NCBI GenBank assembly: GCA_001899145.1
Contig: MKVF01000018.1
Location: forward strand, 310,001 to 374,000
Direction: 5' to 3'
Length of the DNA: 64,000 nt
Source of the DNA: Flavobacteriia bacterium 40-80
GTDB taxonomy: Bacteria; Bacteroidota; Bacteroidia; Flavobacteriales_D; Crocinitomicaceae
The stretch's first letter is position 1. The number at the start of each line of letters is the position of its first letter. The translations under genes and the position numbers were made by a program. Below, one piece after another: positions 27,614 through 40,479 of the stretch. The notes beneath the pieces were generated by a model. That model had not been told where the DNA came from. It ran no database searches and saw nothing but the letters and a program-made list of their open reading frames with translations.

Positions 27614-27834
27614 GTTGTGCTATTTTAGTTGTTTATCTGATCATAAGGCGTTTCAGTTTCTGCCTCCTGTTATTATACCTGAACAGGAACAGGCCGTTTT
27701 TTAACGTGGAGCTCCTCCACATTAGTGTTGGTTCTATAGTTGTCACAAAGATTGCAAGGAAGAAGAGGAATATAGAGAGGAGAAATACCTGATTTGTAAA
27801 AACAGGAGTATATCCCTACTTTTTATGTTGTTAA

Positions 27835-27876
27835 GTATTTATGCCTTATTTTGATTAGGTATTTATACCTTATTTT
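27835..27876 (+). repeat. Two 18-bp direct repeats with palindromic cores
   Basis: GTATTTATGCCTTATTTT (27835-27852) and GTATTTATACCTTATTTT (27859-27876) differ at one base and are 24 bp apart. The second copy contains the palindrome AGGTATTTATACCT. They lie 34 bp upstream of a -7-like element for the two-component cluster, so they may be operator sites. The rest of the 362-bp gap (27614-27834 and 27918-27975) shows nothing I can name. Confidence 0.55.
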
Positions 27877-30700: not shown

Positions 30701-31474
30701 ATGTCAGAAGCTATTAATCAGGGTCATGTGAATTATACTATTTCTGAAAATGGAATAGCAACAATTGAATTCGGTCATCCGTTAAGTAACTCCCTTCCGG
30801 GTAAGATTTTACAAAAACTTGCAGATACAATTACAGAAGTAAGTAATAATATACAAACAAAGGTGATTATACTGCGATCAGCAGGCGAGAAAGCCTTTTG
30901 CGCCGGAGCAAGCTTTGATGAGCTGATTTCTATCAAGGATCTTGAAACAGGAAAAGTATTTTTCTCAGGCTTTGCCAAAGTAATAAACGCGTGCCGTAAA
31001 TCACCGAAGTTAATTATCGGGCGGGTACAGGGTAAAGCAGTCGGGGGCGGAGTCGGAATGGCGTCGGCAGTAGATTATTGTTACGCGACGACCGGAGCAG
31101 CTGTAAAATTGAGCGAGCTGGCAGTGGGGATTGGTCCTTTTGTTGTTGGTCCTGCCGTGGAACGAAAAATAGGTGTTTCAGCGATGAGCCAGCTGGCAAT
31201 TGACGCAACAGAATGGCGTTCTGCACAGTGGGCATACGATCGCGGCTTGTATGCGGAGCTTTTTGAAACAGTGGAAGGAATGGATATTGCTATTGACAGG
31301 TTAGCAAATAAGCTGGCGGCTTCTAACCCGGAAGCAATGACGATGTTAAAACAGATTTTCTGGCAGGGAACGGAGAATTGGGATGAATTATTACCGGAAC
31401 GCGCAGGAATGAGCGGAAAACTAGTCCTGTCTGATTTCACTGTGAATGCGATCAATTCATTTAAATCAAAATAA
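30701..31474 (+). CDS. Enoyl-CoA hydratase/isomerase (crotonase) family protein
   Basis: 257 residues, the normal length. The crotonase signatures are present: AFCAGASFDEL (oxyanion-hole loop near residue 66) and GRVQGKAVGGGVGMASAVDY (~108). The residue equivalent to the second catalytic Glu is in KLSELAVGIGPFV, so an acid is near the active site. Exact substrate cannot be assigned; a degradative acyl-CoA role is likely. It has its own promoter and terminator. The thioesterase downstream is separated by an independent promoter and riboswitch-like leader. Confidence 0.9.
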   Translation: MSEAINQGHVNYTISENGIATIEFGHPLSNSLPGKILQKLADTITEVSNNIQTKVIILRSAGEKAFCAGASFDELISIKDLETGKVFFSGFAKVINACRKSPKLIIGRVQGKAVGGGVGMASAVDYCYATTGAAVKLSELAVGIGPFVVGPAVERKIGVSAMSQLAIDATEWRSAQWAYDRGLYAELFETVEGMDIAIDRLANKLAASNPEAMTMLKQIFWQGTENWDELLPERAGMSGKLVLSDFTVNAINSFKSK

Positions 31475-31506
31475 GACAATTGATTAAAACAAGATAATAA
31501 AATTTA

Positions 31507-39111: not shown

Positions 39112-39287
39112 TGTAAATTCAAAATAATATACTTGTAATTTTAAAATTAATATCATGTTTTTTCAAAATAATAATTATGTAATTTCAAAATTTTTTATTT
39201 GATATTTGAATATACTATTTATATAAATTCAAAAAATATTTTTTGTTATTTTAAAATTTTATTACTGTAATTTCAAAATTTAATTTT
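39112..39287 (+). repeat. Eight tandem 22-bp repeats (iteron-like operator array)
   Basis: The core TGTAATTTCAAAAT recurs with an exact 22-bp period at 39112, 39134, 39156, 39178, 39200, 39222, 39244 and 39266. The copies at 39178 and 39266 match the core exactly, most others differ at one or two positions, and 39200 is the most diverged. The 8-nt spacers are variable and AT-rich. The period is about two helical turns, so all copies face the same side. The last copy overlaps where the -33 element of the ATPase gene would be. No rep or dnaA gene is near. Confidence 0.85.
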
Positions 39288-39294
39288 ATTTTTG
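39287..39294 (+). promoter_or_regulatory. -7 element of the AAA/DUF4143 ATPase gene
   Basis: TATTTTTG matches TAnnTTTG directly after the last repeat. The TTG at 39292 lies inside it and cannot be the start codon. Confidence 0.6.
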
Positions 39295-39306
39295 ACTGTA
39301 AAACAA

Positions 39307-40479
39307 GTGATTGTGTTTATAAATAGAAATATATTTTTTCCGGTCAAATTACTGCTGACAAAATACCCGATTGTTACTATCACAGGTCCGAGACAATCAG
39401 GAAAAACTACATTTCTGAAAACAATGTTTTCGGATTATCGCTATGTTAATCTGGAAAATCCGGATATGCGGTTGTATGCTACCAACGATCCGAATGGGTT
39501 TCTGAATGAATACGATCAAAAGGTGATTCTGGACGAAGTACAACGTGTTCCCCTGTTGTTTTCTTATTTGCAGGATAAAGTGGATCAATCAGGAATAATG
39601 GGGCAGTATATCCTTTCCGGTTCCCAGAATTTTCACCTGATGGAAAACATTACCCAAAGTCTTGCGGGGCGTGTGGCGATCTTTAAATTGTTCCCTTTGG
39701 ATTTTCAGGAGATGCGTTCCCAAAACTGGTTAGATGAATCGGATTATCTTAAAAATCTGATCCGTGGATTTTATCCTGCGATTTATGACCGGGATATCCC
39801 ATCTAAGGATTTTTATGGTAATTATATCCAGACGTATATTCAGCGTGATATCACGACACTTATTAATATCCGGGATATGCGCGCATTTCAGAATTTTCTG
39901 TCGCTATGTGCTACGCGTGCAGGCCAGTTGTTGAATTTGAATTCGCTTGCGAATGAATGTGGGATCACCCAGCCGACAGCGAAGGCATGGCTTTCGGCAC
40001 TCGAAAACAGCTTTATTGTTTTTCAGCTCCATCCTTATTATAAGAATTTTAGCAAGCGGATAGTGAAAACACCGAAGCTTTATTTTTATGATACAGGCTT
40101 GTTGTGCCATCTGCTGAAAATAAAAGATGCTTATAAATTGCAGACGGACCCCATGAAGGGAATGCTGTTTGAAAATATGATGATAGCGGAGTATGTAAAA
40201 CAAATGCACCATCATAATGATCTGAGAGATATATGGTTCTGGAGAGATGCTTCAGGAAATGAGATAGATCTGCTGGTGGAAAGCGAAAATGGAGTTACTA
40301 TTGCTGAATTTAAAGCTTCCATGACAATAATGCCTGATATGTTCAAAGGCCTGACCCATTTTGAAGCAATTTCCGGTTGGAAAGATCTGAATAAGCAATT
40401 GGTTTATGGGGGGGATGCGGAGCAGAACAGGACGGCCGGGAAAGTAATTTCCTGGAAATCATTTGGGATTGCTGAATAA
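39307..40479 (+). CDS. AAA ATPase of the AAA_14/DUF4143 family
   Basis: About 390 residues from GTG 39307 (GTG 39313 is equally possible; no ATG is available). Walker A is TGPRQSGKTTF (~26-36) and Walker B VILDEVQRVP. The DUF4143 half contains a winged-helix-like segment (NLNSLANECGITQPTAKAWL) and ends in a restriction-endonuclease-type core: GNEIDLLVE with EFK shortly after, like PD-(D/E)xK folds. The family is widespread, often multi-copy, and its function is unsettled. Here it is a single gene behind eight 22-bp repeats, and its own winged helix could bind them (inference). Confidence 0.9.
   Translation: MIVFINRNIFFPVKLLLTKYPIVTITGPRQSGKTTFLKTMFSDYRYVNLENPDMRLYATNDPNGFLNEYDQKVILDEVQRVPLLFSYLQDKVDQSGIMGQYILSGSQNFHLMENITQSLAGRVAIFKLFPLDFQEMRSQNWLDESDYLKNLIRGFYPAIYDRDIPSKDFYGNYIQTYIQRDITTLINIRDMRAFQNFLSLCATRAGQLLNLNSLANECGITQPTAKAWLSALENSFIVFQLHPYYKNFSKRIVKTPKLYFYDTGLLCHLLKIKDAYKLQTDPMKGMLFENMMIAEYVKQMHHHNDLRDIWFWRDASGNEIDLLVESENGVTIAEFKASMTIMPDMFKGLTHFEAISGWKDLNKQLVYGGDAEQNRTAGKVISWKSFGIAE

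Follow-up and report, generated by a model that had tools for sequence, protein, structure and literature searches.

A phased 22-bp repeat array at the promoter of an AAA_14-DUF4143 ATPase-nuclease gene: a likely self-recognised operator

The locus described here lies in a stretch of 64,000 nucleotides from Flavobacteriia bacterium 40-80 (hereafter the window). It carries an AAA_14-DUF4143 ATPase-nuclease gene whose neighbours are an MFS gene and an M3 peptidase gene. A repeat array is placed between the DUF4143 gene and the MFS gene, which are divergent. The features are collected in Table 1; start codons are predicted. The mechanical start of the open reading frame, a TTG at 39292, falls inside the −7 promoter box and homologues align from a GTG further downstream. 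For both reasons the gene start was corrected to this GTG.

Table 1. Coordinates of the gene, its protein motifs and the upstream elements, in window positions.
Feature	Position	Strand	Remark
Repeat array, eight direct 22-bp units, consensus TGTAATTTCAAAATATTATTTT	39112..39287	+	Proposed operator of the downstream DUF4143 gene
Last array core (TGTAATTTCAAAAT)	39266..39279	+	Lies downstream of the expected −33 position and upstream of the −7 box
Bacteroidota −7 box TAnnTTTG (TATTTTTG)	39287..39294	+	General Bacteroidota consensus; the box also follows the array in relatives
AAA_14-DUF4143 ATPase-nuclease gene (PADLOC PDC-S01), 388 aa	39313..40479	+	Start GTG 39313
Walker A GPRQSGKTT, aa 25-33	39385..39411	+	Invariant
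Helix-turn-helix, aa 209-232	39937..40008	+	Predicted recognition helix 220-232 starts at Q220-P221, residues covarying with the repeat
PD-(D/E)XK nuclease motif E287, D319, E332-x-K334, aa 287-334	40171..40314	+	Conserved residues, alpha-beta-beta-beta-alpha layout

The initial annotation had claimed, from sequence alone, eight repeats at an exact 22-bp period which end where the promoter begins. Both claims held, though only two copies of the core are exact. The units start at 39112, 39134, 39156, 39178, 39200, 39222, 39244 and 39266, and match the core TGTAATTTCAAAAT at 13, 13, 12, 14, 10, 11, 12 and 14 of 14 positions, units 5 and 6 being decayed. The self-identity of the array is 0.62 at lag 22 and 0.71 at lag 44. 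In 3000 Markov shuffles which kept the composition, identity at lag 22 was 0.42 ± 0.04 (maximum 0.57) and did not exceed 0.595 at any lag. Downstream of the array stands TATTTTTG, which we take to be the Bacteroidota −7 promoter box; it begins 7 bp past the end of the last core.

The encoded protein matches the Pfam profiles PF13635 (7e-49) and PF13173 (1e-28), giving an AAA_14 plus DUF4143 arrangement, and the PDC-S01 model PDLC04790 of PADLOC (E 5e-98). Membership of the PDC-S01/AAA_14-DUF4143 family, judged by profile, is met across the protein. Like the Walker A motif, Walker B (D74-E75) and the residue R120 are invariant. Among the nuclease residues, D319 and E332 are invariant in 69 sequences, while E287 and K334 are kept in at least 90% of them. 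In the structure model, which is confident (mean pLDDT 94.7), an AAA+ core is followed by a helix-turn-helix formed by helices 209-216 and 220-232, and a PD-(D/E)XK fold is present. The conserved Walker A/B and nuclease residues and the confident model agree with the family's fusion of an AAA+ ATPase and a PD-(D/E)XK domain. The assignment made earlier, an AAA_14/DUF4143 protein with a winged helix and a nuclease-like C-terminal core, is upheld by profiles, alignment and structure model. The best fold match is an archaeal Walker ATPase (2qen, TM 0.41); weaker matches comprise Orc1/Cdc6 (2qby, whole-chain TM 0.25), RuvB and clamp loaders. A single-sequence search of the PDB with the window protein returned no relative, and a profile search one insignificant match.

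This ATPase-nuclease family is very common in bacteria yet uncharacterised. A published account (PMC12988326) ranks PDC-S01 fourth in frequency among the defences of prokaryotes and describes it as a fusion of an ATPase and a PD-(D/E)XK domain, with experimental validation pending for most candidates of this kind. The window protein matches the PDC-S01 models (AAA_14 plus DUF4143 ATPases), but PDC-S01 remains a phage-defence candidate only in the literature and its antiphage activity is unproven. A role in defence or mobility, raised as a possibility in the initial annotation, was not established. In the literature searched, we found no regulatory DNA, ligand or regulation of PDC-S01, and DUF4143 appeared by name only in an expression study.

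Homologues lacking any upstream repeats would have spoken against a link between array and gene. This check was run and did not refute it, as homologues carry gene-specific phased repeats. Significant direct or inverted repeats were detected upstream of 79/112 Bacteroidota relatives (70.5%). A second set, drawn from a different collection and with some members of other phyla, gave 64 of 76 upstream regions (84%). The corresponding figures were 9/117 for control genes (7.7%), 0/71 for the same loci at −700 to −500 (0%) and 12% for the 3′ flanks of relatives. Fisher p values against the control genes (3e-24 for the set of 112, 1e-28 for the set of 76) are inflated by related sequences. In some 16-30% of the relatives, the upstream region lacks a significant repeat. 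Upstream repeats are thus a property of the AAA_14-DUF4143 family and not of the window gene alone.

The periods and forms of these repeats vary. Direct periods group around 22/23 and 32/33 bp, which is nearly two and three turns of the helix, and periods of 37/38 and 44 bp are also seen. Nearly all relatives with at least 54% identity possess a 22/23-bp array of the window type, in genera which include Flavobacterium, Algoriphagus, Mucilaginibacter, Pedobacter, Dyadobacter and Chryseobacterium. At least two cores occur in 32 of the 40 members with a QPTAK/R helix, at intervals of 22 bp (69) or 23 bp (20). In three relatives (L013, L037, L039) the half-site is reversed within a 22-bp tandem. 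Other relatives use palindromes at 32/33 bp or a single inverted pair on the promoter, and a paralogue in the own genome (L055) has palindromes 32 bp apart.

Across these forms, the sites remain tied to the promoter. The distance from the last core to the −7 box is 5-7 bp in 26 of the 27 measurable QPTAK/R relatives. Several inverted pairs have the −7 box within their right half-site or immediately behind it (26% versus 2% expected); an exact TAnnTTTG box is missing from the 120 bp nearest the start in 48 of 84 inverted-pair members. In many relatives the half-sites overlap the −33/−7 spacer, the −7 box or bases adjoining the start codon. One mark of an autoregulated operator is a set of sites which overlap the promoter of their own gene in a fixed register, and this mark is present.

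The repeat also proved to be specific to the gene. The initial annotation had proposed that the same repeat scattered through the genome, independent of this gene, would refute the link; the check covered the own genome, 396 phylum genomes and 59 relatives and did not refute it. In the own genome, the paired array motif was not found outside the array of the window's DUF4143 gene. Allowing at most 2 mismatches, it occurred in none of the 395 other genomes of the phylum set. An array-first search of the 59 relatives with at most 3 mismatches returned matches in the own genome (G000) and in G001, G009 and G013, each beside a QP-clade orthologue. The sole match away from an orthologue, an isolated one with 3 mismatches in G014, is probably due to chance. 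Furthermore, paralogues within one genome carry different repeats, as seen for five of six own-genome copies and for six copies of the genus-mate G023. The 32-bp unit of L055 occurs, within the own genome, only in L055's own array.

The five further DUF4143 genes of the own genome lie at C9:87319, C9:18354, C29:21626, C21:280037 and C18:474028. Four have visible private repeats (22, 32 or ~23 bp) and the C29 copy shows none. Paralogue expansion is strong in two relatives, with 13 matches to the window protein in G001 and 18 in G023, in genomes of ~3 Mb.

The second mark of an autoregulated operator, a site sequence which covaries with the protein's own recognition helix, is met as well. Residues 220-221 pair with the repeat word: QP with CAAAAT, xK with GGAAT and HN with GTAAT. 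The operator class (CAAA, GGAAT or GTAAT) was read from the DNA, which gave 55 non-redundant members with a label. P221 ranked first and Q220 second of about 370 columns in excess mutual information with this class. The classes were set after examples had been seen and the ranking is not fully independent; for this reason the following two tests outweigh it. The first, a label-free comparison of protein pairs, uses shared repeated words corrected for overall protein identity; it placed Q220 at rank 2 and P221 at rank 4 of 372 columns. The second uses a tree built without the helix-turn-helix columns, on which the operator class changes 8 times versus 27 in shuffles. The p values of the pairings (1e-19 for QP-CAAA, 2e-11 for xK-GGAAT and 8e-8 for HN-GTAAT) are not corrected for phylogeny.

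Four HN/GTAAT members (L173, L177, L185, L187) are nested in the QP/CAAA clade, which represents a co-switch of helix and repeat inside the window's own clade. The HN/GTAAT pairing recurs in other phyla (L195, L196, L201, L204). Two plasmid copies were judged by eye: one from Ruminococcus albus combines a QP helix with CTTTGAA repeats, and one from Bosea combines a D.K helix with GGAATT in an upstream pair which is not significant in the shuffle test. The other two of the label-free top four columns, residues 313 and 314, are located in the nuclease region outside the helix-turn-helix. They stand just before the nuclease residue D319 (window 40249-40254), and their covariation might reflect a second DNA contact or a clade effect. 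The self-binding which the initial annotation held possible gains support from the covariation of repeat and recognition helix, and we consider it likely, in the absence of binding data.

We propose that the array is the DUF4143 gene's own operator, probably bound by the encoded protein and most likely as an autorepressor; binding, the sign of regulation and function are inferred. The array, its promoter register, its gene specificity, the recurrence across the family, the recognition-helix covariation and the conserved nuclease motif are shown. In this model, the winged helix of the AAA+/PD-(D/E)XK protein would read a half-site of 14-17 bp. Several protomers would sit side by side on one DNA face, two helical turns apart at 22 bp, an arrangement which we infer from the fixed phasing. 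Cooperative binding on one face had been suggested earlier; cooperativity was not established. The bound protomers would cover the −33 to −7 spacer of their own promoter. Transcription would most likely be repressed until the protein is titrated, its nucleotide state changes or the real trigger is met. We favour autorepression by inference, because the sites fill the −33/−7 spacer or overlap the −7 box. Lastly, a private half-site for each paralogue would keep the copies of one cell from repressing one another. Direct binding, cooperativity, the negative sign and insulation between paralogues all rest on inference, without binding or expression data.

The alternative which survives best also regards the array as the protein's own site, but of an activating or switch type, in which oligomers recruit RNA polymerase and expression is bistable and high. 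The last site stands at a fixed distance from the −7 box, and a fixed register at the promoter could also suit an activator. In addition, a Thermus relative is up 6.6-fold with a plasmid present, only in Argonaute-containing cells (PMC4406477). The literature searched yielded no other published data on expression; this result shows regulated expression without showing how. Against activation, the half-sites of many relatives overlap promoter elements or start-codon-adjacent bases in a manner which usually blocks polymerase. We judge this alternative unlikely.

A second alternative sees the array as a cis substrate of the nuclease, similar to an origin, a transposon end or a homing site, with gene and array forming a mobile or replicating element. 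An AAA+ protein with a winged helix beside its own repeats recalls archaeal Orc1/Cdc6, and there is the weak fold match to Orc1/Cdc6 on origin DNA. Relatives occur on 376 plasmid records, and other DUF4143 loci showed neither neighbour of the window gene in their flanks. One relative, L190 (Chryseobacterium koreense), carries unit copies both upstream and downstream of its gene. However, half-sites are essentially absent from 3′ flanks, where QP-clade genes have no arrays, and the repeats keep the promoter register. Next to the window copy we identified neither a replication gene nor a transposase gene. Nor could an empty site be resolved: in G013, which has the best relative of the M3 peptidase (79%), the 1.5-kb flank contains neither the MFS gene nor DUF4143, and an insertion is unresolvable. 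This reading seems very improbable to us.

Even less appealing is the view that the repeats are sites of another host regulator, shared for example with the divergent MFS gene. The position of the array between divergent genes would suit it. Against it, relatives with different neighbour genes still keep the array, paralogues of one genome have different repeats and the repeat class tracks the protein's own recognition helix. Finally, the region is 82% AT, and in such AT-rich DNA tandem units could arise by chance or by mutational duplication; the shuffle tests, the control genes and the conservation across families and phyla all but exclude this.

Further candidates were rejected. An RNA hairpin or element does not fit arrays which lie upstream of the −7 box with the half-site in both orientations; RNA structure remains conceivable in relatives whose only inverted repeat touches the start codon. 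A transposon end array would require repeats at both ends, and the 3′ flanks of QP-clade genes lack arrays; L190 is the single exception. An iteron replicon was dismissed, no Rep gene being beside the repeats. Viruses carrying the array as a decoy or trigger received no support, since viral contigs contained no exact match to the array pattern.

The proposed operator can be related to known systems. Controllers of toxin-antitoxin, restriction-modification and prophage modules bind operators which overlap their own promoters, and related modules have different operators. The likeness lies in a module-encoded protein and promoter-overlapping operators which differ between related modules. Here, in contrast, the proposed regulator is the AAA+ nuclease itself, and long phased arrays are possible instead of one or two palindromes. 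Archaeal Orc1/Cdc6 proteins combine AAA+ with a winged helix and bind repeats near their own genes; the window protein shares the AAA+ plus winged-helix layout but adds a PD-(D/E)XK domain, its proposed sites lie on a promoter and, over the whole chain, the folds match only weakly. Plasmid iterons, to which the repeats had been likened in the initial annotation, are direct repeats of ~22 bp bound by an encoded protein, as is proposed for the window protein. This resemblance gained no support: the locus has no Rep gene and many relatives use inverted or 32-bp forms.

If the array is an operator, every PDC-S01 member has its own DNA ligand beside the gene, which would open binding, regulation and nuclease control to direct tests. 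A recognition-helix code would make binding sites predictable from the protein sequence. Private operators would also explain how paralogues can be numerous within a genome (as many as 18 matches in a relative) without cross-repression. The repeat sequence, changing in step with the helix, indicates on which DNA each protein should be tested. A bolder reading, which we regard as no more than possible, is an evolvable self-recognition code: each PDC-S01-type copy would have a private DNA address, read by its own winged helix through residues 220-221. This address would silence the gene and serve as an assembly platform which holds the AAA+ nuclease inactive until displaced. It would furthermore set compatibility between copies, as do plasmid incompatibility or phage immunity groups.

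Some minor observations complete the picture. The unit copies found 3′ of the L190 gene, the single exception among relatives, may be a duplicated or displaced array. The plasmid carriers include Rhizobium and Agrobacterium plasmids, 36 Moraxella records, a Wolbachia plasmid and an archaeal plasmid. Plasmid copies with strong upstream repeats were seen in Treponema, Moraxella and Sulfitobacter (plasmid set L234-L241, L243-L248). Two more short tandem repeats are present in the window, at 27823-27876 and 31453-31504, with units of ~23-24 bp in just over two copies.
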